A stretch of DNA of 64,000 nucleotides from Acidobacteriota bacterium. GTDB taxonomy: Bacteria; Acidobacteriota; Terriglobia; Acidiferrales; UBA7541. Positions 6,727 through 63,217 of this stretch are shown here, in pieces. The notes beneath the pieces were generated by a model. The model had not been told where the DNA came from. It was given only the letters and a program-made list of their open reading frames with translations, and ran no database searches. The position numbers and the translations under genes were made by a program. Where the stretch lies: assembly GCA_003223215.1 (NCBI GenBank), contig QHYH01000098.1, forward strand, positions 1-64,000. The letters are read 5' to 3'. The stretch's first letter is position 1; every line of letters begins with the position of its first letter.

Positions 6727-6960
6727 ATGCGTCCTCCCACACGCGAGTTTTTCAATTCTTCGGTTACCGCCGCATGCGCAGCTAGCCTCGGCGGCGGAGC
6801 TCTGGCGGACTCTCTCGTAGCGGGTGCGACTTCCAAGACTTCGGCATCTCCTCCAACGCTCTCCCTCAAAAAGGGTGTGTGGTACGAAATGCTGCCCGCG
6901 AAGCTGAGCACCGCGGACCGCTTCAAAATGGTGACGGACGCAGGCGCCGACAGAGTCTGA
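6727..6960 (+). pseudogene. Second TIM-barrel sugar isomerase-like gene, truncated after about 77 codons
   Basis: The ATG at 6727 opens a Tat-type leader (REFFNSSVTAACAASLGGGA) and then GVWYEMLPAKLSTADRFKMVTDAG, the typical first strand and helix of a xylose-isomerase-like barrel. The family sequence stops at codon 77, where the frame hits TGA and reverse-strand sequence of an unrelated DUF2293 gene begins. The missing part is about 200 residues. It would have been a fourth gene of the cluster. Confidence 0.75.
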
Positions 6961-6974
6961 CGAGCGCAAGGCCG

Positions 6975-7332
6975 CGCGTCGTTGAGCATCGGCTTGGCAT
7001 TCTTTTTCTGCTCGCTCAAGCGCAGATACCTCGACCAAGATGCCCTGGCGCTCGTAGCGGCCACGCGACCGGCTAAAGCGAACAACGACCGCCGAAAGAC
7101 CGCTGTACTTTTTGGCACGACGTGTAAGGGCGGCATCCCCTCTGGGGAGGTACTCCAGATGATCGAAGTCAGCACAGCTCAGGCATAGTGCTCGTTCCCC
7201 ATCCAGAAAGAGGAGCTCACCCTTGCAAATTACCTGGCCGCAACCCGTACACTTAGAATCACGGAGGATCTCGAAAATAACCAGGTCTTTGGACCTTAGT
7301 GAGGATTCGGTCTCGCTCTGTGCTGCCTTCAT
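6975..7332 (-). pseudogene. DUF2293-like protein, C-terminus lost at a deletion junction
   Basis: From the ATG at 7332 the reverse strand encodes a zinc-ribbon-like segment (CTGCGQVICKGE, then CLSCADFDHLEYLP) followed by DAALTRRAKKYSGLSAVVVR and RGRYERQGILVEVSALERAE, which I recognise as DUF2293-type. After about residue 118 the frame runs on into the antisense of the truncated sugar-isomerase gene without family resemblance, so the original 3' end is missing. Function of the family is unknown to me. Confidence 0.6.
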
Positions 7333-7401
7333 GGCTCGACGACCTACTCCCCAGTGTTCGGCACGCCCGACGCAGCCGCTCTGGGGTCCTTTAAGTGAGT
7401 C

Positions 7402-7674
7402 TCAATGCATGCAAATCTCCGGCATCTCTACTAAGACTTTCCCCTCGTCTGTCATCCGGCGATGCTTACGGTATCCGGCCCACTCCTTTTCCAGCACGCG
7501 AGCTTTATCTCTAGTGGCGATTTCGAATCGGCCAAACGCCAGGATCAAAGTGCGCGTGCTTCGCGTGCTAACATGAGGCGGCGCTGCTCGAGCTGTCATC
7601 CCACATTTGCGGCAAATAATCAGCGGTGTCCGGATGTTTCGACTGGTTCGGATGCATTGAAGCATTCTCATCAA
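7402..7674 (-). CDS. Hypothetical protein
   Basis: A possible 90-residue protein with one CxxC (IICRKCGM) and a basic C-terminal half containing RVLEKEWAGYRKHRRMTDEGKV, which reads like real protein sequence. I recognise no family. It lies upstream of the DUF2293 remnant on the same strand. It may be a remnant or spurious. Confidence 0.25.
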   Translation of the reverse strand: MMRMLQCIRTSRNIRTPLIICRKCGMTARAAPPHVSTRSTRTLILAFGRFEIATRDKARVLEKEWAGYRKHRRMTDEGKVLVEMPEICMH

Positions 7675-7689
7675 GCTCGTCTCGAAGGC

Positions 7690-8731
7690 TGATCAGTGCG
7701 GGCATCGATGTTCCCTCGTGCCAGTTCGACCGTAACCGCGCGATCATTTTCTGGAAACCGCGTTCTCTGGGAATCGCCCGAGGGCATTTTTGAACTCTCC
7801 AACTAGGTCTGTATTGTTTCTGCCGTTGGCATTTTATTCTCGGAGCCGCTCGCCCGTGAACACAAAAGTTTCCCGAGTCAATACGAATGGCATCTGCCGC
7901 GCCGGAGTAAGGATCTTTTTCTAATTGCCGGATTTATTGGCACGACGAAATCCGGTGCAATGATTCCTTCTTGCTGGGTCAGCGATGAGGGTCAGTCCAA
8001 CTAGTGAACCAATTCCGATATCATTTGACAATGGATCAACTTGAATTGCGTTTGAGAGATTTTCTCTGCCACAACCACTCCGTCATCGCAAAGCAATCGA
8101 ACGCGGTCGCCAATACTCAACACCTCGATAAATTCCTCGAGGTTCATGCGCCGCTGGCAAAAATCTATCTGTAAGGGAGGGCTGACGTTCGCCGGTCGCG
8201 CTACTTCAAATTGATCGTGTCGAAGACGAGCCGCGATTGACCAAACGATGCCGCTAGCAAAACGCCAATATCTGCGCGCAGTCTTTTTGCACTTGTCCAG
8301 CGCCGCTGAGAAGGGCAAGCCGATGCTCCGGATTCCGTGCCTTTTCGACACCTTCCGTCCATTACCGCAGTTACTTTCCCCGCATCAAACGAATCTCTTG
8401 GATAGTAAGAGGATGCAACACCAGGCGAGCGCTGTCGTTGCTCGGGAGCAGGGAACAATACCAGCCTGATTAACGCGCAAAGGGCGGCCCCACATTCCCG
8501 ATTTGCCGGCGCTAGATAAAATGGCGCCCCTTTTGAAATAGGGTTGCGTCTCAACCGATCGGAAAAAAAAACTTGCCGGGTGGGATGAGAAGGCCGGTCT
8601 CCGCGGGATGCCATACGCTCCCACTGATCGACGTGCTCGAAGCACAAAGAAGAGGAGACCGGCAATCGAGAAGGTCGGCACCATACGGACGACGGCAGAC
8701 AGGCGTTTAAGTAAAAGGGGACAAGCTCACC
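7690..8731. other. Region without a recognisable gene
   Basis: About 1 kb with no convincing coding sequence. A 48-codon reverse frame at 8001-8147 (starting MNLEEFIEVLSIGDRVRLL) has plausible composition for a small SH3-like protein but no supporting context. A long reverse frame across 8201-9055 lacks protein-like composition and overlaps an IS110 remnant on the other strand. Confidence 0.4.
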
Positions 8732-8935
8732 AATGGTTTGCATTTGGGAGATCGCTCGAGTTCGTACCGCATCTTGAATGAAGCAGGAGAGATAGTTTTG
8801 GAGCACAAACTGGCAACTACGCCGGAAGCCATGAAGGAGATATTCGCCTCGGATGCCGCGAAGCCGGATGGCCCTGGCGCTCCGCCGAGCTGAATACATC
8901 AGTTCGCAGTGGTAGGCGCGCGGCATCTGAGAGGT
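8732..8935 (+). pseudogene. IS110-family transposase, N-terminal remnant
   Basis: The forward strand reads NGLHLGDRSSSYRILNEAG, EIVLEHKLATTPEAMKEIF and then, after a frame change near 8850, MPRSRMALA. This matches the start of IS110-family transposases, where a RuvC-like GLDLGD motif is followed by LDEAG.V and TTPEAL. The motif aspartate corresponding to GLDLG is replaced by His. Only about 60 codons remain. It is not a copy of the intact IS110 element at 47.9-49.7 kb, whose N-terminus is different. Confidence 0.5.
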
Positions 8936-9009
8936 CGGACCTGTTTCGCTCCAGAGACTGTGTACTGCGAGATTTGCTCGGCAGACCGTTCGCGAAGGCA
9001 GTGGCAGGC

Positions 9010-9501
9010 TCACACAAATCCGATAAAACGTCCAGCGGCAATAATTCCAGTCCATAGCAGAATCGAAACAAAACCCGAAACCTTCGCCTTCATGGGCAAG
9101 AGTGCGCCCTCATCCCAGTTTGCCACATCTCGATAGACGATCCAGTGGAAGATGAGCGCGTGCATGCCAGCCAGAAAAATCAATAGCATCTTCAGGCGAA
9201 ACGCGGGATTGCTATAGACCTTGACCGCTTCCGATGAAAATAGCAGCACCCCGGTAACCACTTGCACTGCAAATCCTGCCCAAGCCCAAGGAAGCAGCCT
9301 TCCGGCCAGAGCCGAAACGCGCTCCCGCCGCATGGCCCATCCCAAGAGGCGCAAATCGAGAACGGCCACAGTCCCTACGAGCGCCGCCATCCCAAGCAGA
9401 TGCACGGTTTCAATCGTTGGAAACAGCCACAGCGACTCCCGAACGGCGGCGCCCATCGCACTCTGATCCAGCCGCTCGCAAAGTGCCAGCAGGTCGGGCA
9501 T
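9010..9501 (-). CDS. DUF6644-type integral membrane protein
   Basis: A 163-residue membrane protein starting at ATG 9501 (MPDLLALCERLDQ). Four hydrophobic segments are visible: LWLFPTIETVHLLGMAALVG, LLPWAWAGFAVQVVTGVLLF, LKMLLIFLAGMHALIFHWIV and the terminal SILLWTGIIAAGRFIGFV. Conserved histidines lie in the first and third segments, as in small haem- or cytochrome b561-like membrane proteins, but I cannot assign a ligand. Its start is 2 nt after the stop of the exported DUF6152 protein, so they form an operon. Confidence 0.7.
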   Translation of the reverse strand: MPDLLALCERLDQSAMGAAVRESLWLFPTIETVHLLGMAALVGTVAVLDLRLLGWAMRRERVSALAGRLLPWAWAGFAVQVVTGVLLFSSEAVKVYSNPAFRLKMLLIFLAGMHALIFHWIVYRDVANWDEGALLPMKAKVSGFVSILLWTGIIAAGRFIGFV

Positions 9502-9503
9502 GT

Positions 9504-9893
9504 CTATGGCGCCGCCGACAGTATTTTGCCGTTGGAAAGCTGGACGGTAGTCAAAGACATATAAGCCGAGCCGTCTTTGGCGCGAAAGCCTTCGACCGTG
9601 ATCTGGGCTCCGCGCCTCACAGTGTCTGGCGCCCATCCGCCGAACCGCGTCAGCATTCCGAGACTCCCTAGCTCGAGCTTCCAGTTTGTGACCTTACCTT
9701 GCTCGTCTTTCACGTCCGCATAGATATATGCATGCGGGTTGATCCATCGAAAATCCGTAACGATGCCTTCGAGCTTCACCGGATGCTTCGTGTCAAACCT
9801 TGCGAGGCCGTGATGGCCGCGCAGGGAAGGTACGCCCAACAACAAAACACCTGTCAGTAGCAGGGCTGCTCTCAATCTGGGATTCATCGCCAT
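9504..9893 (-). CDS. DUF6152-type exported protein
   Basis: A small secreted protein of about 129 residues; ATGs at 9893 and 9887 both precede a signal peptide (RAALLLTGVLLLGVPSLRGHHG). The mature part has the family pattern: HHGLARFDTKHPVKLEGIV, DFRWINPHAYIYADV, KVTNWKLELGSLGMLTRFGW-like and GAQITVEGFRAKDGS. This is a small OB-like/beta protein of unknown function common in Acidobacteriota and proteobacteria. It is followed after 2 nt by the DUF6644 membrane protein, its usual partner. Confidence 0.8.
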   Translation of the reverse strand: MAMNPRLRAALLLTGVLLLGVPSLRGHHGLARFDTKHPVKLEGIVTDFRWINPHAYIYADVKDEQGKVTNWKLELGSLGMLTRFGGWAPDTVRRGAQITVEGFRAKDGSAYMSLTTVQLSNGKILSAAP

Positions 9894-10100
9894 CCTCAGT
9901 GCGTGGCGACACGCGCATCGCCTTAACGTCATGATCGTGTATCCCTTTCTGGTCCGGGTGCTTTCCCTTGAAATGATAGCGCACTGCCGACAGCGATTGG
10001 TCAGTGTTATCTCGAAGCGTACTGAACAACCAAGGAGCAGCTTGGGCGCTGCGCGTTGTCTTTTCCGAACTGCAATTCTTCAGAAATTGAGAGCTCGTCA

Positions 10101-10137
10101 TGTAAGGATAATGTAACGGCCATGTAAGGCCTTGTAA
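10101..10137. promoter_or_regulatory. Four phased TGTAA direct repeats
   Basis: TGTAA occurs at 10101, 10112, 10123 and 10133, spacings of 11, 11 and 10 bases, so all four face the same side of the helix. The array lies between the leftward DUF6152/DUF6644 pair and the rightward FG-GAP protein/Crp genes. Tandem half-sites at one helical turn are typical of OmpR/PhoB-type response-regulator sites. No such regulator is encoded nearby; the Crp-like gene at 11088 would prefer an inverted repeat. Confidence 0.5.
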
Positions 10138-10189
10138 ATTCTGCGCTCATTTTCGTTTTACGTTGCTCTCGGTCAAGGATGACTAGCGA

Positions 10190-11152
10190 TTGCGACGCAC
10201 TATCAACGCAGGGGGACTGAATGCCGATGAAGTGCTGGCTCAGGAGCTGAAGGTCGCTTTCGGCCCTCCTTCGTCAGGTGGCACTGTGATTTCACCCGAG
10301 TCTCAGGAAAGTCGAATATCGGAACGAACTGGCCAAGTTCATGTGGCACTGTTCGTTTGTCTTCTCGCTCTCCTCGGCCCGCTCATTGGTGGCGCAAATA
10401 CACGCGCCAATGATTCGCAAGGGTTCGCCGCCGGGCATGGGCTACTTGCCGCGAATGACAGGTTCGCGATTGATGATTTTGACGGAGATCTCGCCCCAGA
10501 CATTGCGATCGTCCAACCGGTGTCCAGCAATTCTTCGGGTACCAAGTACATCGTTCAACTGCAGTTCGGTTCCGGTCAGAGACGATCCATATGCCTGGCC
10601 GCACACTGGCGCGATGTGCGAATTGTTGCACGCGATGTGAACGGCGATCGTATTCCGAACCTAATCCTAAGTTCCGCGTGGAGCGAAGAGCCGTATGCCG
10701 TCCTGACCAACGAAGGAAACAGTGCTTTTCACCGGTTGATCCATCTTCAGTTAAAGCACTCTCTCGGGAATCTAAGCAGAGTCTCAATTGGCCCCCAACC
10801 ACGGCCCGTCGGAAACAGCTGCGACATCTCCATCGTATGGAGAACGGGACTGCGCGAAAACGAAATGTATTGGGGACACCTGCTCGACGAAGCGTTTTGT
10901 TTATCGACCCAATTCGATCTTAGTCCGCTGTCCTTTGCTTGCGTCCCTGCCTGGGCACGCCCCACCGAGACCCGCTCTGGTCCGAGGCTCATCCGCGTCT
11001 CACAAAACTGGCCGATGCCAACTTCATTCGGCGTGATCGTTCTCCTAACCGAGTTGCTCCAGGCCCAAATTCAAATTGAGGTCTACCATGTTTCAGAAGG
11101 GTCAAAAGCGTTCGATAACGAAGATCTTGGAGTTGTTTTCGGAGATTCCTGA
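10190..11152 (+). CDS. Exported FG-GAP/VCBS-repeat-like protein
   Basis: The frame opens with TTG at 10190, but the signal-like segment HVALFVCLLALLGPLIGG starts near codon 50, so a GTG around 10341 may be the true start. After it come FAIDDFDGDLAPDIAIV and ARDVNGDRIPNLILSS, two FG-GAP/VCBS-type calcium-loop blades. The second half lacks clear repeats and the frame overlaps the next gene by 65 bp, which suggests a 3' frameshift or an eroded end. Function is not known; such proteins are usually secreted or surface-bound. Confidence 0.6.
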   Translation: MRRTINAGGLNADEVLAQELKVAFGPPSSGGTVISPESQESRISERTGQVHVALFVCLLALLGPLIGGANTRANDSQGFAAGHGLLAANDRFAIDDFDGDLAPDIAIVQPVSSNSSGTKYIVQLQFGSGQRRSICLAAHWRDVRIVARDVNGDRIPNLILSSAWSEEPYAVLTNEGNSAFHRLIHLQLKHSLGNLSRVSIGPQPRPVGNSCDISIVWRTGLRENEMYWGHLLDEAFCLSTQFDLSPLSFACVPAWARPTETRSGPRLIRVSQNWPMPTSFGVIVLLTELLQAQIQIEVYHVSEGSKAFDNEDLGVVFGDS

Positions 11153-48233: not shown

Positions 48234-49685
48234 ATGAAATCTAAGCCAGAGGAGCAAAACAAAAGAGCCACCAACCATCCAACGCAGCACCAATGGCACG
48301 AGATGAACCGCAAGCAACGACGCGAGATAACGCGCCAGATCCAGAGCGAAGACCTCAGCCTAGAAGTGATCCATCCCGACGCTGGTGGCATTGATATTGG
48401 CAACGAATCCCACTACGTGGCAGTACCGCCAGGCCGAGATAACCAATCGGTACGGCGGTTCGGATGCACCACCGCCCAGCTAAAGGCGATGGCCGCCTGG
48501 CTAAAGCAATGCAGAATTCGAACAGTCGCGATGCAATCCACCGGAGTTTATTGGGTTGCGGTATACGACATTCTGGAACAAGCGGGTTTGGAGGTGTACC
48601 TGGTGAATGCCCGGGACACGAAGAATCTGCCCGGGCGGAAGAGCGACGTGCAGGAGAGTCAATGGTTGATGAAGCTGCACACCTATGGACTGTTGCGAAA
48701 TTCGTTCCGGCCATCACAGGAGATTCGCGAGATGCGGACCTACTGGCGGCAGCGCAACGATCTCGTGCAGAGTGCGGGTCGGCATATTCTGCGGATGCAG
48801 AAGGCGCTGACACAGATGAACATTCAATTGGCCAATGTGTTGACCGATATCAGCGGAACAACCGGACAGGCCATTATCAAGGCCATTCTGGCAGGCGAAC
48901 GCAATCCGCATAAGCTGGCTGAGTTTCGGGATCCTCGCGTCAAGGCGAGTGAGGAACAGATTGCGCAGAGTCTGGAAGGCAACTGGCAAGAGGATTTGCT
49001 GTTCGTGTTGAAGCAAGAGCATAAGGGCTACGAGTTCTGCCAGAAGCAGATGGCGGAGTGCGATCGACAGCTCAAGCAGTATCTCCAGCAGCGAGAGGAT
49101 CGCAGCCACGGTGCTCCTCTGCCGGAAGAGAAGCGCAAGGGACGGCTCAAGAAGAAGAAGGGAAATGCGCCGCAGTTCGACTTGCGCGAAGGCTTGTTCC
49201 GCATGACCGGCACGGACCTAACCCGGATCGACGGCATCGATGTCATGACCGCCACGACCATCATTAGCGAAGCAGGATGGGATATGAGCAAATGGAAAAC
49301 CGAGGACCATTTTGTTTCCTGGCTGCGGCTGTGTCCGGACAATCGCATCAGCGGGAACAAGGTCATTGGCAAAGGCCGGCTGCCCACCAATAATCCCATC
49401 ACTATCGCGTTGAAGATGGCGGCTACCACCTTGCGGTTAAGCAAAACCTATCTGGGAGCGCAGTTCCGTCGATTGCGAACCAGGTTGGAGGCTCCCATCG
49501 CGATCAAGGCCATGGCCGCCAAGCTGGCCCGCTTGGTCTACCGCATGCTGCGCTACGGCATGAAATACGTGGACCAAGGAGCAGCCGTCTACGAGCTTCG
49601 ACACCGAGAGTTACAGATCAAGCGCCTCAAGGCCAAAGCCCAAAAGCTCGGATACCGAGTCACCCCAATACCGGCGGCGGCCTAA
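48234..49685 (+). CDS. IS110-family transposase
   Basis: A 483-residue DEDD transposase. It begins with a 55-residue basic extension, then the RuvC-like start IHPDAGGIDIGNESHYVAVP (first Asp), the conserved VAMQSTGVYWVAVYDILEQA (Glu), LVNARDTKNLPGRKSDVQES (Asp, Asp) and in the second half GLFRMTGTDLTRIDGIDVMT, the transposase-20 domain with NNPITIALKMAATTLRLSKT and the serine-region. All characteristic residues seem present, and the frame is intact. It would excise and insert the element using a guide RNA. It is not related closely to the remnant at 8732. Confidence 0.9.
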   Translation: MKSKPEEQNKRATNHPTQHQWHEMNRKQRREITRQIQSEDLSLEVIHPDAGGIDIGNESHYVAVPPGRDNQSVRRFGCTTAQLKAMAAWLKQCRIRTVAMQSTGVYWVAVYDILEQAGLEVYLVNARDTKNLPGRKSDVQESQWLMKLHTYGLLRNSFRPSQEIREMRTYWRQRNDLVQSAGRHILRMQKALTQMNIQLANVLTDISGTTGQAIIKAILAGERNPHKLAEFRDPRVKASEEQIAQSLEGNWQEDLLFVLKQEHKGYEFCQKQMAECDRQLKQYLQQREDRSHGAPLPEEKRKGRLKKKKGNAPQFDLREGLFRMTGTDLTRIDGIDVMTATTIISEAGWDMSKWKTEDHFVSWLRLCPDNRISGNKVIGKGRLPTNNPITIALKMAATTLRLSKTYLGAQFRRLRTRLEAPIAIKAMAAKLARLVYRMLRYGMKYVDQGAAVYELRHRELQIKRLKAKAQKLGYRVTPIPAAA

Positions 49686-53708: not shown

Positions 53709-53782
53709 GCGGGCGTCGTACAATGGCAGTATAGAAGCTTCCCAAGCTTCGGACGTGGGTTCGATTCCCATCGCCCGCTCCA
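53709..53782 (+). tRNA. tRNA-Gly (anticodon CCC)
   Basis: A complete 74-nt tRNA with encoded CCA. The acceptor pairs GCGGGCG (53709-53715) with CGCCCGC; the D-arm is GTAC/GTAT; the anticodon arm is GAAGC-TTCCCAA-GCTTC with CCC at 53741-53743; the T-arm is GTGGG-TTCGATT-CCCAT; the discriminator is T, followed by CCA at 53780-53782. The integrase gene ends 5 bp downstream on the other strand, so this tRNA's 3' end is probably its attachment site. Confidence 0.92.
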
Positions 53783-53786
53783 GATT

Positions 53787-55022
53787 CTAAAGAACTTGCA
53801 CCGCTACCTCATTTTCCATTTTTTCCAAAATATCAATTTTGTTGCCAAACTTTGTGGAAAATTCGATGCGGATTTGTTCGAGAGGAATCTCTCCCGTGTA
53901 CCGTGCCGTCATCGCAGAGGACGTGTGCCCCATTTGCTGACGGATCACTGCAGGGTTGATACCGGCGAGTTCCCATCGGCGGTTGCAGCCACGTCGAAAG
54001 GCATGCAAACCGGCCTTCTTTAGTCCCAGAGCCGTCACGGCCGGATGTAGACATTGATTCAGCACATAGGTTTCGCGGAGTGGACCGCCACGCTTCGAGC
54101 GGAAGACCAAGGCATGGGAGCTAACGGAGGTTCCGAGGAACCCCTTCAGTCTCTGCATTGCCCTTCGACCCTCAGGGTCCCGAAGGAGAACCGTTCGATA
54201 GGCCGTTACGTTCTTACAGGGTCCAATCTTCCCGGCGCTTCGTTGATCTGAGGATTCTTCTACCCGAACTGTGCCCGCACCGAAGTCAAGGTCATTCGCC
54301 CTCAGTGCGAGGAGCTCACTTGTTCGCAAGCCTGACGCTGCTGCCAGAAGGAACAGCGTGGCGTACTGTTCTCGACGGGCCTTGCCAAGCCGGTCCATCT
54401 TGCCGACGTATTCGGCAATCTGTTGCGCTTGGGCCCAAGAGAACGACACCTTTCGGCGGCTGTCTATCTTCATCTGCAGCTTGTCACGCTCAGAAATTGC
54501 GAGCCCGCTTTGGGAGAAAGGAGGCTTTTTGTCCTTCGAGGATGCCGAGAGAACTCGCTGCATCGTGCGCAGGATGTTCTTTATCGTCACCCAGGAGAGT
54601 CTCTGCTCCCGCTTCTTCCATATCCACTCATTCACTGAATCGATGTTGATATGCTCTACCGGAATGTTTTTCCAGTCCGCCTCGAGGTGGGCCTTGAGGT
54701 GCCCATCTGCAACCGAAAAAGTGGACGCTCGAAGCATTCGTGGGGCAAACACTTCCCGGTAGTACGAGACAGCATCGGCGAAGGTCCTGGAGGAAGGAAT
54801 GTGATAGTCACTCGAATTGAGTTCCAGCCTCGAGATGAATTCCAGTTTCTTCCGCGCGGCTTCGCTTTTCGTCATCTGGCTTGTCGGTCCGATAACTTCT
54901 GTCTGACGCTTTCTTTCTTCTTGTCCCGGAAGATCAATCCAGTACTGAAAAAAGAAGAACTTCTGGCCGTCGGCACGTTTTCCTACGCGCACCTTCGGAT
55001 TCTGCCCTTTCCTGCGACTCAT
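53787..55022 (-). CDS. Tyrosine integrase beside tRNA-Gly
   Basis: From ATG 55022 (MSRRKGQNPKVRVGKRADGQ, GAGGAA upstream) this is a 411-residue integrase. It has an N-terminal beta-sheet arm-binding domain (KFFFFQYWIDLPGQEERKRQ), a core-binding domain (FADAVSYYREVFAPRML) and the catalytic domain: ASGLRTSELLALRANDLDFG, LHAFRRGCNRRWELAG and QQMGHTSSAMTARYTGEIP with the nucleophile. It looks intact. The gene points at the tRNA-Gly 3' end, so it is the integrase of an element inserted there. The frame continues upstream without interruption into a relic of another gene, which is not part of it. Confidence 0.88.
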   Translation of the reverse strand: MSRRKGQNPKVRVGKRADGQKFFFFQYWIDLPGQEERKRQTEVIGPTSQMTKSEAARKKLEFISRLELNSSDYHIPSSRTFADAVSYYREVFAPRMLRASTFSVADGHLKAHLEADWKNIPVEHINIDSVNEWIWKKREQRLSWVTIKNILRTMQRVLSASSKDKKPPFSQSGLAISERDKLQMKIDSRRKVSFSWAQAQQIAEYVGKMDRLGKARREQYATLFLLAAASGLRTSELLALRANDLDFGAGTVRVEESSDQRSAGKIGPCKNVTAYRTVLLRDPEGRRAMQRLKGFLGTSVSSHALVFRSKRGGPLRETYVLNQCLHPAVTALGLKKAGLHAFRRGCNRRWELAGINPAVIRQQMGHTSSAMTARYTGEIPLEQIRIEFSTKFGNKIDILEKMENEVAVQVL

Positions 55023-55179
55023 GCGTTTTCCTCGCTTTCGAGTCGCTTGAACTGGCGGCACGTCAATGTTATCAGTACGCGAAGCGCGGTCAACGGGCAT
55101 CTGGCGCTCGATGGGCGAAGCGGTGGAAGACTGAGAAATGAAATTGCTGGATATTGAAACAGCCGTCATTTTGTTGAAG

Positions 55180-55673
55180 CTATTCCTTAACGAGTCCGCC
55201 GATGCGCCGGTCGAGGTCTTCGGCGCGATAGGCCAAAATCTGCTCGGCGAAAGGGCGCATGCAGCTGCCGTTTTTCCCGAGCCCACCGCACCCACAATGG
55301 CGGTGCCCGTGAAAAGGCCTCGTTCCGGGATGACCAGCCAGCGCGGTGCTTCCGAGGGCCTTTGCTTGCGGGGGTGATGTACCTCGCCTACTACGAGAGG
55401 AAGTTCTGTCCTCTTCCGGAGGACAGGATAAGGAGGCAGTTTGCCCGCCCGAATCTGGCGGCCTGCCTTGAGGGCGAACATGTAGATGCCGGAAGCAGGA
55501 TCGAATAGGCGATGTAAGGTGTTGTATAGAGGAAGAGGGCGTAGGAGTAGTTGAAAAAGAGAGGCCGAGGCTGAGCGGATGGCCATGACCCGTAGGAAGT
55601 AGAGCGCTATTCGCGTGGCCGCCGAGAGAAGACAGGCGAGGAAGTGCCTCGAGTGGAGAATTCGTTGAATCAT
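55180..55673 (-). pseudogene. Type IV coupling protein (TraG/VirD4-like), truncated and frameshifted
   Basis: The first 130 codons give an N-terminal hydrophobic segment, then PPYPVLRKRTELPLVVGEVH, RWLVIPERGLFTGTAIVGAV and a Walker A GAVGSGKTAA. After a one-base frame change just past it (near 55260) the other frame gives CMRPFAEQILAYRAEDLDRR, IGGLVKE-stop, the expected continuation. The ATPase core beyond this point is lost. This is a relic of a conjugation system's DNA pump and suggests that the element was once an integrative conjugative element. Confidence 0.7.
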
Positions 55674-55808
55674 GCCCGCGCCACGTTTGGCGCGGTGTGG
55701 CTAACCTTCCTCTCAGTCTGCGTCTGCTGTTGCTTGCGCCAGCGGCCGAGATCCACATCTCTCCAAACATGATTTCTCCTTTCCTTAGCTCTTCTTGGCA
55801 TTACAGGA

Positions 55809-55926
55809 CGCGGGCAAAACACCCGGTGAACAGAGAATCATCCTGTTCACTGGGCTGGAGCGACCGCCACGGTTCCCGTGGCAACGAAGTGGGGTCGCTC
55901 CAGCCCATTCCGGTGTTTTGCCCGCG
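55809..55926. other. 118-nt multi-armed inverted-repeat structure
   Basis: Four nested or adjacent stems can be read directly. Outer: 55809-55826 with 55910-55926, 17 bp with one bulged C. Arm A: GTGAACAG (55826-55833) with CTGTTCAC (55843-55850). Arm B: GGGCTGGAGCGACC (55852-55865) with GGTCGCTCCAGCCC (55893-55906), 14 bp perfect. Inside B, arm C: GCCACGG (55866-55872) with CCGTGGC (55876-55882). Another 9-bp hairpin (GGTGACGGG/CCCGTCACC) lies at 56002-56044. It could be a folded single-stranded DNA site (such as a transfer origin) or a structured RNA. No reverse transcriptase or transposase lies beside it. Confidence 0.7.
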
Positions 55927-55957
55927 CCCAAATTGATCGTCGCGCCATGCGCAACCG

Positions 55958-56240
55958 CTATGCTCCCAACAACTTCGCGGCACCCCGGGGGTGACGCGAA
56001 CGGTGACGGGAAGAGTTACGTGTGTCTTTCACGCACCCGTCACCGCGACGATTGATCTCCGCCACTGGTGAACCGTGTTCCTGCACCAGGAGGGTCCCGA
56101 AAAATACGGGCCGGTCGGGCTTGAGTTGCGAAAACCCCAACCGTAAGTCACGCTCCGTGATCGTCCCCGTGCTCCATGCCTGATAGAGGCTTTCGAAGCG
56201 GGCACCATGGAATCGCCGGCGGGCATCTCTTTCAGATTTC
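55958..56240 (-). CDS. Hypothetical protein or fragment
   Basis: The reverse strand encodes FHGARFESLYQAWSTGTITE, RDLRLGFSQLKPDRPVFFGT and LLVQEHGSPVAEINRRGDG, which reads like real protein sequence with a GFSQLKPD.PVFFG core, ending at 55958. I see no family and no secure start codon, so the 5' end may be lost. Conjugation modules often have small genes at this position. Confidence 0.35.
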
Positions 56241-56362
56241 TGGTGACGAGCATTCCCCGTCCCTAGCTCCTGTTAAACAGCGATTGCGGACAGGTGAAAT
56301 CCGTTGCGGAATCGGGCCAGCCACTTCTACGAGTACGCCACTAACCAGGAGTCAATGCCGCT

Positions 56363-58391: not shown

Positions 58392-59402
58392 TTACAAGGA
58401 ATGGAGCCAGTCAAGAAGGTCTTTGTTCTGCTGCCAGCATGGGATCGTCTGGACTGACGGAGGCTCGCTGATTTTTTCAAGGGCCTTTCGTTTCATCTCC
58501 AGATTTGCCCTCGCGTAAATCTGAGTCGTTTTAGCATCCACGTGGCCGAGGAAGTCGCGGATCATGTCCAGCGAGACCCCGCTCTGCAACAGGTGCATAC
58601 CCTTCGTGTGCCTCAGCGTGTGCGGACTTACGGTGCGGTTCAAACTCGGGCGCCTGCTTTGTGCCAGGACCACGTATTTGTGAAGGATGTACCGGATTCC
58701 CGAACGCGTCAGTCGTTCGTGGTGCGCATTCTGGAAAAGAGGCTTGTCGAACTGTTCGGGACGATCAAGGTGGTTTTCCTGCATGTGCTTGCGCAGAAGC
58801 TGAACTGTGTTTCCCATCAAAGGCACAGCGCGCATCTTGCGCCCCTTGCCCAGAAGGCGCAGCTGCGCGGGTGGATCCAAACGCACGTCTCCGACGGAAA
58901 GATCGACCAGCTCCTGAACACGCGCTCCCGCGTCGTAGAGGACGCTCAACAAAACCGCATCTCTCCGACCCTCTGGTGTTTGGAGGTCTGGCTGCGCCAG
59001 GATCTCCGCCAACTCTTCTTTGGAAAGGTAGTTGACGGTTGGCCGAGCATGTTTCCGCAGCGGGATCGCGAGGACTTTTTGACACTGATGCATACGGGCC
59101 GGCTCTTCCGCTTGAACATATCGGAAGAATGCGTGCAAGGCCGCAAGGCGTTGATTGCGCGTGCGGGGTGAAGACTTTCTTTCTCGCTCCAAGTAGTCCA
59201 GGAATGCTTCGACGAGCGAAACATCAATCTGTTCAAGACGCAGCCTTTCCGGAGCGATTCCCCGCACATCGCGGCAGAATCGTAGAAGCAGAGTGAATAC
59301 GTCGCGGTAGGCCTTGATGGTGTTCGGGCTGAGATTCCGCTGGGCCGCCAGATAATGTGTCAAAAAGTTCGTGACGTGAACGGAGAGATCGGTCGGTTTC
59401 AT
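58392..59402 (-). CDS. ritC: RIT recombinase C
   Basis: A 336-residue tyrosine recombinase, third gene of the trio; its ATG overlaps the ritB stop (ATGA). Core-binding domain: HVTNFLTHYLAAQRNLSPNT. Catalytic residues: Arg in LYDAGARVQELVDLSVGDVR, HxxR in SPHTLRHTKGMHLLQSG, and LGHVDAKTTQIYARANLEMK with the nucleophile Tyr. The C-terminal tail (SEPPSVQTIPCWQQNKDLLD) is longer than in XerD and resembles the remnant at 2385-2603. All three recombinases are presumed to act together to move the element. Confidence 0.88.
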   Translation of the reverse strand: MKPTDLSVHVTNFLTHYLAAQRNLSPNTIKAYRDVFTLLLRFCRDVRGIAPERLRLEQIDVSLVEAFLDYLERERKSSPRTRNQRLAALHAFFRYVQAEEPARMHQCQKVLAIPLRKHARPTVNYLSKEELAEILAQPDLQTPEGRRDAVLLSVLYDAGARVQELVDLSVGDVRLDPPAQLRLLGKGRKMRAVPLMGNTVQLLRKHMQENHLDRPEQFDKPLFQNAHHERLTRSGIRYILHKYVVLAQSRRPSLNRTVSPHTLRHTKGMHLLQSGVSLDMIRDFLGHVDAKTTQIYARANLEMKRKALEKISEPPSVQTIPCWQQNKDLLDWLHSL

Positions 59403-60379
59403 GGTTCGACCCTCCGCGGAATGACATCGCCAAAGGCCGCGTCCGCTCGCGCCGTAATCTCGGGAAAAAGTTCGGCGGTCAGATGAAGGTAACGCTGAGT
59501 TCCGGAAAGATCCTGATGGCCAAGGTAAGTAGCCAGAAGAGGAAGTTTGGCATCCAGATCCTCACCGTCTTGATACCAGCGTCGTAAGACACGGACGGCG
59601 AACAGGTGCCGAGCGTCGTGGATCCTGGGTCCCTTGCCTCGCCCGGCGTGAGGAATTCCGCACTGCAGCAGCAGTTGTCGGAACACCGTATAAACCGTGC
59701 GTAGGCTCACGGGCCCTCCATTTGGTCCCGGGAAGAAGATTGCATCGGGCGGGCGTTTTTCGAAATGGGCAGCATACTTTTGCAAGCGGTTCACGAGAGG
59801 CAAGGAGGGGGGAACCAAGCGGTCTTTGCGGAATTTCCCCTGGCGAACCGTGATGATGCCTTGATTCAGATCGACGTCTCGAACTCGCAGTTTTAGTACT
59901 TCTCCGACCCGAAACCCGCAGCTGTACAGGAGCCGAAAGATTTCGGGCATAACGAGATGCCGCTGAGGTGAACGCGCCGTTGGCTGCAAGGCGTCCACGG
60001 CCTGAAAGAACCTTCCAAGCTCTTCGTCGGTTAGCAACCTTGGCACAAAAGTCGATGGGTTTCGAGTACCGAAAGTGGAATCAGGCACGTAAGCGGAATA
60101 ACCTACCCGCAACAAAAACCTTGAGAATTGGCGAGTGACGACGATCCGTTGCTGGTGCGTTCCTGCACTTTCGTGTGCTTTCTTTGCTAACCATTTCCGG
60201 GTGATGGAGACAGGTAACTCATACCTCGCCAATCCCTCCTGCACCAAAAAGTCGTCGAGGCGCTGCAAGATTCGAGTCTGCTCCCTATAGGCGTACCCAC
60301 AGGCATGCTTTTCCTGAAGAAAATTCTCCATGTAGGCAGACAGAACGCTTTGGAACCGGTTGGATGGATCAGCGGGCAT
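59399..60379 (-). CDS. ritB: RIT recombinase B
   Basis: A 326-residue recombinase, second of the trio. The N-terminal domain includes FLQEKHACGYAYREQTRILQ and VTRQFSRFLLRVGYSAYVP. Catalytic residues: Arg in SCGFRVGEVLKLRVRDVDLN, the HxxR box as IHDARHLFAVRVLRRW and LGHQDLSGTQRYLHLTAE with the nucleophile. It overlaps ritA by 11 bp and ritC by 4 bp, so translation is coupled. The beta-hairpin (GIITVRQGKFRKDRLVP) carries the catalytic Lys. Confidence 0.88.
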   Translation of the reverse strand: MPADPSNRFQSVLSAYMENFLQEKHACGYAYREQTRILQRLDDFLVQEGLARYELPVSITRKWLAKKAHESAGTHQQRIVVTRQFSRFLLRVGYSAYVPDSTFGTRNPSTFVPRLLTDEELGRFFQAVDALQPTARSPQRHLVMPEIFRLLYSCGFRVGEVLKLRVRDVDLNQGIITVRQGKFRKDRLVPPSLPLVNRLQKYAAHFEKRPPDAIFFPGPNGGPVSLRTVYTVFRQLLLQCGIPHAGRGKGPRIHDARHLFAVRVLRRWYQDGEDLDAKLPLLATYLGHQDLSGTQRYLHLTAELFPEITARADAAFGDVIPRRVEP

Positions 60380-61625
60380 GATTCACCTCCTCTGGGTCCA
60401 ACGCCACACCTCGTAAGGCTTCTACATCCACCTTCGCGTAGATACGTGTTGATTCCAAGCTGGTGTGTCCCAAGATTTCCGAAATGGTTGGAAGCGGCGT
60501 GCCTTTTTCTAGAAGCCGACTTGCTAGAGTATGGCGCAGCGAATGGAGGCCCCGCTTTTGTGGGCTCCGAAAGGTGATCCTCGCCAGCCAGCGCCAATAG
60601 TTGACAATGTCGTACAAATGGTTGTTTTCCTTGAAAGGATCAAACGGTGGCTTCACTTTTAGGAATACCTCTCGGTGTGTCGTTTTGGGACGACCCGACT
60701 TCAAGTAGTCAATCAGAGCCTCACCGACCTCGTTGGTCAAAGGCAAAATCAACGCCGCGTCCGTCTTCGCTTGCGTGATTTCTATGGTCGACTCCGCCCA
60801 ACGAAGGTTGTCCAGTTTCAGTGTGCGAATATCCCCAGCGCGCATTCCCAATCGGTATGCCAGTAAGAGGATGGCGTAATCTCGTTTCCCTTTCGCGGAA
60901 CTGCGATCGACCGCACCAAGAAGTCGGACGAGGAGTTCCTGATCCCACACCGAAGGGATGGTTGCATCCCTGGGAACACGGATTTTCGGCAGTTCCGCAC
61001 TGAGATCTTTCTCTAGAATCCCACGCATGGTGAGGAACCGGAGAAAACACCGCACATCGGATACGATTCGCGCGACCGTCTTCGGCTGTAAGTGATCTCG
61101 ACTTGACACGAACTCGGATAGATCCGCCGACTGAATTTGTCCCAGTGTCCGCTCTTTCTTTGAATGGAGAAAATCCAAAAAGATCGTCAGTCCTGTGGTA
61201 CGCAGAACAAGGGTCGATGGTCGCAGATGAATCCGATCCTTACAGTACTGCTCGTAATCATGCAGTGTGTTCTGCATGGCGGGGGGAAGATGGATAGCCT
61301 GCACAAGTGTGCGAGGTCGTTCAATGCGCCCGTTCTCAGCGAAATCGGCGAGCACCTTTAGTTCGAACGCCACATGCCGACGCCAGCCATCGCTCGGCCC
61401 ATCCGGCTGCTCGTCCCTGACGCGACACTCCTCGAGAAAGCGCGCCGCCAAATCTGCGGAAAACTCATCTCCTAGTTCCTCCCGACGGGAAAATTCGATG
61501 AGGTGTTCCCAGGTTGTTCGATACCGATACCGTGATTTCCTGCTATAGCCCAACCGTTCGATCTTGCCCAGCGCGCCAGCGACCAGTCGTTCCAGTTGCA
61601 AGTTTTCCGAATGGCTTTGTTCCAT
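60369..61625 (-). CDS. ritA: RIT recombinase A
   Basis: From ATG 61625 (AGGAGGG at about 10 bases upstream) this is a 418-residue recombinase, first of the trio. It has an extended N-terminal part (GKIERLGYSRKSRYRYRTTW), a core-binding domain (YEQYCKDRIHLRPSTLVLRT) and the catalytic domain: AYRLGMRAGDIRTLKLDNLR, GLHSLRHTLASRLLEKG and LGHTSLESTRIYAKVDVEAL with the nucleophile. In-frame codons further upstream lack a ribosome site. The longer N-terminus compared with B and C fits the A-type member. Confidence 0.88.
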   Translation of the reverse strand: MEQSHSENLQLERLVAGALGKIERLGYSRKSRYRYRTTWEHLIEFSRREELGDEFSADLAARFLEECRVRDEQPDGPSDGWRRHVAFELKVLADFAENGRIERPRTLVQAIHLPPAMQNTLHDYEQYCKDRIHLRPSTLVLRTTGLTIFLDFLHSKKERTLGQIQSADLSEFVSSRDHLQPKTVARIVSDVRCFLRFLTMRGILEKDLSAELPKIRVPRDATIPSVWDQELLVRLLGAVDRSSAKGKRDYAILLLAYRLGMRAGDIRTLKLDNLRWAESTIEITQAKTDAALILPLTNEVGEALIDYLKSGRPKTTHREVFLKVKPPFDPFKENNHLYDIVNYWRWLARITFRSPQKRGLHSLRHTLASRLLEKGTPLPTISEILGHTSLESTRIYAKVDVEALRGVALDPEEVNHAR

Positions 61626-61731
61626 GACGACCCTCCTCTGAGATGTGGCTTCGATGGCCACCGAGGGGTCCATCATGAAATTTTATGTGCTGTGATCCAA
61701 CAGGAATGAACTGATCGGCAAGCACTTACAG

Positions 61732-61766
61732 CAGCAACTCTACATAACGCCCCACCGCAGATAGTA
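61732..61766 (-). repeat. RIT terminal inverted repeat, right
   Basis: On the reverse strand it begins TACTATCTGC at 61766 and carries TATGT and AGTTG at the same spacing as the left end. The outer TAC is the catalytic-tyrosine codon of the flanking reverse-strand recombinase. Confidence 0.85.
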
Positions 61767-62330
61767 CTTCTGTGTGGTCGCGAGCGACTTGTGCCCTAGC
61801 ATCACCTGAATGTCACGCATTGACACGCTAGCGTGGAGCCAACGAGTCGCGCACGTCTTGCGAAACCTGTGCAGGATGTAATGCTCGCACACGGGATGCG
61901 TCTTGCAGGAGACTTCGACGCGCTTCTTGCCGTTGTACTCACCGACCGTGATTGTCGTCTTGCACTGACCGCAATTCTTGCCCGCACGCAGAGCAATCTT
62001 TTTCAGTTTGCGCAAGAAGTGATTGTCAGGCTTGCCCTGCTTCGATAGGAAGATGAAGCGGTCATGTGGGTGCTTCTCGCGGCGTTCCTTCAGTTCGCGA
62101 ATGAGGCTCGCGGGAAGTTCGATTGTGCGGGACTCATGACTCTTCGGCTTGAATCCGACATCTTCCTTTTTGCGGACGTGGTAAGTCCGTGCTTTGAAGT
62201 CGATGTCTGACCACGCAGCAAAAGTCACTTCGCGGTCACGGCATCCTGAACCGAGAAAGAAGCGATAGCGGATTCGCTCTTCGTCGTCCATAGCACCGAA
62301 GAGCCCGTCGCCACCACGGTTTCCAGTGGC
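61740..62330 (-). pseudogene. Zinc-finger-containing tyrosine recombinase, 5'-truncated, ending inside the RIT repeat
   Basis: The readable part starts near LFGAMDDEERIRYRFFLGSG and CRDREVTFAAWSDIDF (first Arg), passes RKKEDVGFKPKSHESRTIEL, a four-cysteine insert (NCGQCKTTITV, VSCKTHPVCEHY), HRFRKTCATRWLHASV (HxxR) and MLGHKSLATTQKYYLRWGVM-stop. The catalytic Tyr codon TAC (61766-61764) is the first codon of the RIT terminal repeat. The N-terminal half is lost; upstream sequence belongs to another gene. Confidence 0.75.
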
Positions 62331-63217
62331 GCTGTATCTCACTCTTCAGCTTCGCCTCAATTTCTAGCTCAGACTTGGTCGCAATGGCGAGACTTTCCGC
62401 TGTAGCACACAGCAGGTCCCGCACGCGCTTGCGCTGATCTTCTGGGAACTCATCTTCGTCAAAGATCGTGTGCAGCACCAGCTTTAGCTCGTAGCGCCGC
62501 ACGAACTCGGTTTCAAGACTCTTCTTGGACATACGGTTCCGCAAGTCAAGGAATGGAGGAAACTCGGCGTTGTAAAAGAGCCGGACCCTTCCCTGAAGCG
62601 GGCGAATGGAAAACCCAACCCTCTGCGGATCGTGAGGCCAGCCGAGGGTAGCCCAGGCCGCATCCGTGGTCTTCACCGGAATCGGCGTCACGACCGGGAT
62701 CTCCACCTCAGTGAAGTCCTTCTTCCGAACCTTAACCTTAATGACCTTCTTCGAGTCTTCGTCTTCCTGTTCAGTGGGCGTTTCCGGCTTTGGCTTGGGC
62801 TTCGGTGCGGGTTTCGCCACCACCTCGACCGGCAGCATGGCGGTCATTGCCGACCCTGTGGCGAATTCCAGCTGTGCTTGGATAAAACCCTTGGTCGTGA
62901 CAGACACCATCTCATCGGCTCCCGTATACCGAATCGCATGAGCCGTTACTTTGATCTTCGATAGTGAGGGCTCGGCCGGGTTCCAATACGACGGCGAGGC
63001 ATCTGTTTCGAAGACGAAGCTGTACCGCTGTCCAGGGTGCATCTTGACGACCGTGCCGGCAAAGCGCCACCGGATAAAGGTGGGGGCCCTACGGCCTCAA
63101 TCGGCGGCGGCTCCGGCTTCCCTTTCCCGGGGCTGTTCTTCTTCGACAATGTTCCATTTCTCGACCTTCCGGACCAGTTTCCTCTCCCGGTCTTGATTCC
63201 TCCCGTCGGGGCTAAGA
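62236..63217 (-). pseudogene. Unassigned protein with an in-frame TGA, 3' end fused to the recombinase remnant
   Basis: Main frame: FIRWRFAGTVVKMHPGQRYS (from about 63090), GFIQAQLEFATGSAMTAMLP, an acidic/Pro linker (KPKPKPETPTEQEDEDSKKV), ATLGWPHDPQRVGFSIRPLQ, PPFLDLRNRMSKKSLETEFV, KLVLHTIFDEDEFPEDQRKR and LLCATAESLAIATKSELEIE. The same frame is open upstream (KLVRKVEKWNIVEEEQ) but interrupted by TGA at 63097-63099 (reverse complement TCA). Past about 62320 it overlaps the antisense of the recombinase remnant, so its end is probably lost. It looks like the C-terminal part of a large protein; I cannot name a family. Confidence 0.5.

Follow-up and report, generated by a model that had tools for sequence, protein, structure and literature searches.

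What is the compact, branched structure that lies among conjugation relics in this Acidobacteriota genome, and what might it do? The stretch of 64,000 nucleotides that we analyzed (hereafter the window) had previously been given a sequence-only reading, which described a closed branched fold at 55809-55926 and listed a transfer origin and a structured RNA among its possible functions. We find that the branched element is a real fold and a member of a conserved family, and its association with conjugative transfer modules is well supported. Based on the evidence set out below, we consider it probable that the element is the branched-hairpin part of the oriT region in a family of T4SS integrative elements of the Acidobacteriota.

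The folding calculations bear out the claim of a closed branched fold. Folded as RNA, positions 55809-55926 reach -83.9 kcal/mol on the plus strand (z -10.3) and -86.1 kcal/mol on the minus strand (z -11.6), and folded as DNA, positions 55806-55929 give z -11.7 on the minus and z -11.0 on the plus strand; none of 200 shuffles equals the native sequence in any of these four calculations. The element spans 124 nt and is three-armed: the outer stem closes it, and inside lie a short hairpin and a long one that carries an inner 7-bp hairpin at its tip. On the minus strand, read from c1 toward TraG, one outer arm is followed by the long hairpin, then by the short hairpin and the other outer arm (Table 1). 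The four stems named in the earlier reading are all present, although their sizes were slightly off: the outer stem is 15 bp unbroken (arms of 18 nt, 94% complementary) and the short hairpin 8-9 bp plus 2 bp beyond a bulge. The stem of the long hairpin measures 14-15 bp, and its 15-nt arms are 100% complementary. Inverted repeats capable of forming hairpins are a general trait of oriT regions, and the branched element has them. The covariance model R1, of whose 21 seeds the window copy is itself one, scores this copy at 104 bits (55805-55930, minus strand).

Table 1. Positions in the window of the branched element, its arms, the upstream repeat words and the neighboring features
Feature	Position	Strand	Basis or comment
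Branched element	55806..55929	-	RNA and DNA folds, covariance model (CM) match
Outer stem, left arm	55806..55823		pairs with 55912-55929
Outer stem, right arm	55912..55929		complement of 55806-55823
Short hairpin, left arm GTGAACAG	55826..55833		RNA folds; sequence varies among copies
Short hairpin, right arm CTGTTCAC	55843..55850		RNA folds
Long hairpin, left arm GGGCTGGAGCGACC	55851..55865		almost invariant across 21 aligned copies
Inner 7-bp hairpin GCCACGG-TTC-CCGTGGC	55866..55882		sequence and length vary among copies
Long hairpin, right arm	55893..55907		complement of 55851-55865; alignment
Repeat word CGTCAC, direct, -66 from element start	55991..55996	-	word search
Repeat word CGTCAC, direct, -78	56003..56008	-	word search
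Repeat word CGTCAC, inverted, -113	56038..56043	+	word search
c1 relic	55961..56272 (stop-to-stop frame)	-	local HMM, 52 bits
RBS-like stretch and ATG, start site of the RHH-like gene in relatives	55768..55784	-	comparison with relatives
TraG/VirD4 relic, two frames	55183..55700 (limits approximate)	-	local HMM, 132 + 36.6 bits
Tyrosine integrase part of ORF 53787-55673	53787..55022 (boundary approximate, by reading)	-	PF00589
tRNA-Gly(ccc) beside integrase end	53709..53782	+	possible attachment site

The window copy has decayed to a relic, with c1, TraG, and the small RHH-like gene all disrupted. The earlier placement between a TraG relic and a hypothetical gene was right in outline, except that the c1 relic, which the earlier reading had no means of recognizing, intervenes between the element and the hypothetical gene. 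The window ORF behind the start site of the RHH-like gene does not encode an RHH-like protein, and the first part of the TraG relic runs on into the integrase frame, where the only domain that Pfam detects is the integrase domain PF00589 (E 1.3e-17, residues 428-593). The 3' region of the adjoining tRNA-Gly has no repeat of at least 12 nt elsewhere in the window, and no second att copy was seen there. Given that the fold is intact in this relic, one may speculate that it still serves in trans. Two further features of the window deserve mention: four adjacent recombinase-like ORFs lie beside the relic in one direction (58392-62342, minus strand), two of which were scanned and contain PF00589 while the other two are recombinase-like by reading, and a transposase-like ORF, which we take to be of IS110 type from its translation, occupies 48234-49685 on the plus strand.

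Homologs of the element are found well beyond this locus. A DNA search located three more places with the branched element in the same genome and matches in 32 of the 89 genomes of the taxonomic family. We oriented and hand-curated an alignment of 21 copies, in which the pairing expected of the outer stem and long hairpin (34 pairs) is retained: standard pairs fill 91.8% of cells, compared with 84.1% in shuffled alignments, and fall to 39-49% when the alignment is slid by 1-3 columns. Changes on both sides affect ten pairs (shuffled alignments give 7.2, and 5 of 500 reach 10), and the compensating base changes for which the sequence-only reading had suggested looking amount to 52 double-change cells as opposed to 18.2 in shuffles, a count that none of 500 shuffles attains. 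Most of this covariation resides in the outer stem, where 9 of 17 pairs show changes on both sides; the long hairpin is almost invariant, apart from a single pair that covaries strongly (G-C to U-A).

The covariance model R1, built from these 21 curated copies and hence matching its own seeds by construction, recovers the element from 37 of the 89 family genomes, 38 of the 95 in the order, 45 of a class sample of 399, and 13 of a phylum sample of 396 with the source genome counted; these samples overlap, stricter search filters were used, and the E-values are rough. The covariance search that had been proposed turned up homologs in many related genomes, and with the pairing conserved as well, the outcome is the opposite of what the sequence-only reading had named as a refutation. 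The top matches per genome in the phylum sample are weak (34-44 bits). Of the 14 loci from all 12 other genomes of that sample, 6 loci, from 5 of the 12 genomes, show c1 as the immediate upstream neighbor (L165, L166, L167, L171, L172, and L176; here and below, L numbers denote loci and G numbers genomes), and none of these was used to build R1. Locus L171 is an ICE with a hairpin between c1 and TraG; its match covers a near-symmetric hairpin only and is slightly better on the strand opposite c1. In L164, c1 and c2 lie ~4 kb away on the other strand, and this locus was left out of the member count together with L163, L168, and four genomes of a single genus from another class. Folding of loci from these four genomes (L169, L173, L174, and L175; L170 belongs to the same group as a locus) gives a similar GGACGGGAGCGACCCCC hairpin in another context, where GTGCAC-like words are seen upstream by eye and neither c1 nor TraG is matched, possibly yet another type of element with the same fold. 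Loci retrieved by alignment of c1 belong to Acidobacteria MAGs (gp1, gp2, Candidatus Acidiferrum, Acidiferrales, and Terriglobia).

Several copies may share one genome, as in G000 with nine CM matches, both strands counted, at six places. Tandem copies in the same orientation, 0.3-0.8 kb apart, were also noticed in L048 (9442-9568 and 9876-10000), L116 (1050-1175 and 1718-1825), and L117 (205-329 and 1155-1275), and the two copies in L117 differ in their upstream repeat words (CTTCAC and CGTCAC). A search against Rfam returned no family for the element at gathering score; the permissive matches to snoR9, PyrR210, and Ms1 were far below their gathering scores and were judged to be chance. Neither the DNA of the c1-TraG stretch nor the c1 protein found a match among plasmids, and none of 61 pattern stretches in viral contigs encodes a c1 relative. 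No description of the branched element was found in a literature search whose coverage excludes most subscription journals.

The position of the element within its gene neighborhood is specific. We mapped neighboring genes with local profile HMMs around 58 copies, namely those element-strand CM matches, out of all CM matches, that fall within a chosen set of stretches; opposite-strand rows among the 118 CM matches are not counted, nor are matches in L014, L016, L033, L065, L074, L078, and L082. The gene c1 is immediately upstream in 37 of the 58 copies, and a TraG/VirD4 coupling-protein gene is immediately downstream in 22; each shares the strand of the element without exception (37 of 37 and 22 of 22). 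Coupling-protein or mobilization genes alongside are a further oriT trait, which is provided here by TraG in the 22 copies, c1 being a neighbor to which no function is assigned. Around 16 of the 58 copies c1 and TraG occur together with one or more VirB genes. Among these are genomes from five further families of the class (L098, L099, L100, L102, and, as weak fragments only, L104), whose gene order in the part examined is that of the fullest contexts. The fullest contexts, for example L040, L042, L046, and L049, are T4SS integrative modules in which the order is VirB4, VirB9 (CagX), VirB10 (TrbI), VirB5-like, VirB8, c2, and c1 upstream of the element and RHH-like, TraG, VirB11, a RepB-type primase, often an HTH gene, and a tyrosine integrase downstream of it. 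The Pfam names in this order come from L046, where "VirB5-like" is our reading of the sequence and VirB4 is likewise a presumptive assignment from the sequence. As a separate observation, the T4SS genes of L060 are accompanied by a CHAT-domain TPR protein paired with an S41 peptidase (6768-8057 and 7997-10783, minus strand), which has relatives in L058 and L061 and looks like a defense or signaling module.

The converse test gives a compatible picture. Among 34 loci retrieved by alignment of c1, 27 carry the element just after c1 on the same strand (one is cut by a contig end), a result that is only partly independent because the query was taken from element loci and many of the places are identical (e.g., L129 and L046). 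Three loci that do not carry it end too early (L145, L148, and L162), and 4 of the 34 keep flanking sequence past c1 yet have no intact element: L152 and L139 retain apparent arm remnants, L151 has none, and L153 has only ~33 nt between c1 and the TraG match.

The element is also present in cut-down elements. In 9 of the 58 copies, two of them on short contigs (L114 and L115), it is accompanied by c1 and a tyrosine integrase and no TraG or VirB gene is matched in the stretch examined; the RHH-like gene passes a strict filter in six of these nine. In 5 of the 58 (L105, L097, L008, L123, and L107) a serine recombinase gene lies downstream, and no c1, c2, or TraG is matched in the mapped stretch. 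L097, L123, and L008 supplied the serine-recombinase profile, such that only L105 and L107 are new finds; Pfam confirms the recombinase of L097, and in L008 an RHH-like ORF lies between the element and the recombinase gene. Homology among L097, L107, and L123 falls into two blocks, the first over the repeats and the element and the second over the recombinase gene. An integrase alone stands beside the element in six rows, in one of them on the other strand. This retention of one site with unrelated recombinases is the behavior expected of a cis-acting mobilization site that is used in trans. The picture is incomplete, as both c1 and TraG are missing from 21 of the 58 copies, of which 8, some of them near contig ends, have no recognized neighbor.

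On the c1 side, part of the copies carry an array of a 6-base word at about -67 and about -79 and, inverted, at about -113. The word itself is specific to the element: CGTCAC in the window and, elsewhere, words such as CTTCAC, GTTCTG, and CGTTCA. If one mismatch is allowed, this geometry is found in 18 of 47 copies that remain after removal of similar upstream regions (7 exact, at the same anchor), compared with a mean of 0.17 and a maximum of 2 in shuffled controls and 0-4 at other anchor positions, and the remaining 29 do not show it; since the anchor was picked after inspection of the word test, we treat this count as descriptive evidence. In that simpler test, which asks for at least two direct copies and one inverted copy of a word within 150 nt and keeps relatives in both counts, 35 of 58 upstream stretches score against 8.1 expected, as do 8 of 56 downstream stretches.

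Which proteins could act on such a site? Behind 29 of the 58 copies the strict filter detects a small ORF (70-95 aa) whose pattern is strand-helix-helix, and a few more are seen by eye; its start is 32-82 nt past the element in all but two of the 29. None of the five sequences scanned fits a Pfam family, and the only match of the ORF's profile in the PDB is chain 2jxg, listed as a proline dehydrogenase (E 0.11), which we take to be the RHH domain of PutA. "RHH-like" is thus a reading of a sequence pattern together with one weak structural match. Structure models of c1 and c2 are usable (pLDDT 84.5 and 79.1, respectively), and a fold search with them points to N-terminal winged-helix domains: that of c2 resembles MarR-type regulators (Z 10-12 over 70-98 residues), and that of c1 scores Z 6-7, a range that the tool calls common. 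No relaxase-like match appears for either protein among the matches listed, a result that bears mainly on the N-terminal domains; the C-terminal half of c2 may, speculatively, be of PD-(D/E)XK type. Replic_Relax (PF13814), suggested for c2 by a reading of its sequence, was rejected because nine members of c2 gave no Pfam match, and where this profile exceeds its cut-off, in 2 of 12 genomes, the match is not at c2.

A relaxase in the vicinity, for whose nick site the earlier reading had advised looking, was not found with five Pfam profiles in 12 element-bearing genomes. PF03432, PF08751, PF03389, and PF07514 exceed their cut-offs in 1, 4, 1, and 2 genomes, respectively, and PF02486 in none; with the exception of PF03432 in G285, where the match is ~149 kb or more from the elements, no match over cut-off is on an element-bearing contig. 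PF03432 is presumably also the family of SmpP, the relaxase of the staphylococcal plasmid pWBG749.

Taken together, place, orientation, retention in cut-down elements, and an anatomy resembling that of pWBG749 make the transfer origin the best supported of the functions suggested previously. Against it count that neither a nic site nor, with the five profiles, a relaxase was found close by, that 21 mapped copies have neither c1 nor TraG and four c1 loci no intact element, that 29 of 47 copies do not fit the repeat geometry, and that wobble pairs lend a single-strand role no support (see below). The single-strand recombination site that was suggested alongside it has no specific support. We hypothesize that the RHH-like protein, c2 and c1, or some of these, would bind the upstream repeat array and so recognize their own element, and that the near-invariant fold would form when the strand is single or extruded. 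A DNA-processing protein and the TraG coupling protein could then grip the fold, one strand would be nicked nearby and enter the T4SS, and small elements with the same site could be moved by the same machinery in trans. By analogy with pWBG749, the fold would be the processing part and the repeat array the identity part of the oriT. More tentatively, and with considerable doubt, we suggest an oriT that is served by a relaxase of no described family, c1 and/or c2, and combines a near-invariant fold with separately evolving repeats and layered satellites. If this is true, the satellites would range down to a site and a recombinase.

Other explanations have to be weighed against an oriT. The folded strand could instead be a site for priming or second-strand synthesis, recognized by the RepB-type primase of the element or by the host primosome, with a primer laid on it after transfer or during rolling-circle replication. 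We regard this role, and either of these settings for it, as unlikely but worth serious consideration: the ICE carries a RepB_primase gene (PF16793, E 1.2e-27 in L046), of which 13 of the 58 mapped copies have homologs downstream, and precedents exist in the 40-nt ssi hairpin used by RSF1010 RepB' and the sso of ICEBs1 (PMC4434180, PMC4595007). However, no primase is matched in the stretches of the cut-down elements examined, the fold is three times longer than ssiA and differently built, and a spot between c1 and a coupling-protein gene with specificity-like repeats is more typical of an oriT, by analogy with the oriT of pWBG749 (PMC4652767). The two roles may coexist in one region. It seems less likely still that the element is a double-stranded protein-binding or cruciform control site, an operator or oriV that the RHH-like or winged-helix proteins would bind and that is not nicked. 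Iteron-like repeats lie upstream, and RHH and winged-helix proteins are often autoregulators; however, an operator needs no 124-nt branched fold with compensatory changes, such a site leaves the presence beside unrelated recombinases unexplained, and it would in any case share its location with an oriT.

The non-standard pairs bear on this control site and on a further alternative, that the element is a structured RNA, a leader or intercistronic element of a c1-RHH-TraG transcript that controls the RHH-like and TraG genes. Across 48 distinct rows aligned to the model structure (one opposite-strand row, L016, is included), 35 G.T and 39 A.C pairs occur in 1606 cells (17 pairs each), and the best 22 rows hold 13 and 18, respectively. 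Near-equal numbers are expected if both strands matter alike, as in a control site. An RNA transcribed from the modeled strand should tolerate G-U, which is rare and no commoner than A.C. The short distance to the RHH-like gene and the RNA fold (z -10 to -12) would suit a leader; the absence of an Rfam match at gathering, with permissive matches far below it, the lack of visible G-U tolerance, the occurrence of the element before serine recombinase genes, and the folding of the opposite strand all count against it, and we therefore hold the structured RNA of the sequence-only reading to be improbable. By the same counts, G.T not being above A.C, a single-strand role, at least of the modeled strand, is unsupported by wobble; the counts clearly favor neither DNA strand, and the slight A.C excess corresponds to G.T on the other strand. 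A selfish palindromic repeat of MITE or REP type that spreads by itself would account for several copies per genome, such as the six places in G000, yet wherever c1 or TraG is the neighbor, the copies occupy a single gene junction in a fixed orientation, and they diverge and covary, which makes this explanation very improbable indeed.

If the element is part of an oriT region, as we favor, its conserved DNA signature would be searchable and would mark transferable elements, including small satellites that gene-based searches miss, in the Acidobacteriota, abundant soil bacteria whose gene exchange has been little studied. It also points to a transfer module (c2, c1, and RHH-like) near which none of the five relaxase profiles is matched.

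Several known integrative and plasmid systems share features with the element. An sso has been described for ICEBs1 (PMC4595007), and RSF1010 has ssiA and ssiB, hairpin sites for a RepB-type primase, just as the ICE of the element encodes a RepB_primase-domain protein. However, the ssi site that RepB' recognizes is 40 nt long with one hairpin and 5' and 3' single-stranded tails (PMC4434180), as opposed to ~124 nt and three arms here, and it differs from the element in location and companion genes. The oriT of SGI1 is a GC-rich stretch of 125 bp with several inverted repeats beside genes for the atypical mobilization proteins MpsA and MpsB (PMC6414798), and it is like the element in size, inverted repeats, atypical proteins alongside, and residence in an integrative element. 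An integrative element can, on this evidence, use atypical mobilization proteins. In contrast to c1 and c2, for which winged-helix domains are predicted, MpsA is tyrosine-recombinase-like, and the part of the SGI1 description at hand mentions neither a branched fold nor a fixed repeat geometry (PMC6414798).

The closest published anatomy that we found, as an analogy, is the oriT of the pWBG749 family of Staphylococcus aureus. Its minimal form of ~126 bp is predicted to form a single-stranded DNA branched hairpin from IR1-IR3, with AR accessory repeats, whose subfamily sets specificity, and an adjoining RHH gene, smpO, whose product sets specificity too; copies on plasmids that are not self-transmissible are mobilized in trans (PMC4652767, PMC8136818). 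Size, branched hairpin, and repeats alongside are alike, and the small gene behind 29 of 58 copies in the Acidobacteriota, RHH-like by a sequence pattern and one weak match, may be the counterpart of smpO. The earlier statement that no described element has this exact architecture accordingly needs qualifying, because staphylococci are known to have oriTs that combine a branched hairpin with repeats and a neighboring RHH gene. None of 176 loci contains the pWBG749 core CTTATGCTCTT exactly, and its one match in the window, at 49015 and 6.8 kb from the element, is at chance level. As a PF03432 relaxase is likewise not alongside (1 of 12 genomes, and there far away), the element is not a member of the pWBG749 family. 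Host phylum and T4SS differ as well, and, unlike in pWBG749, a GC-rich hairpin within the fold is near-invariant and the variable words stand in an array outside the fold. As an oriT, the element would show for a second time, and in a different phylum, the plan known from staphylococcal plasmids, in which a conserved branched fold is combined with switchable repeats.
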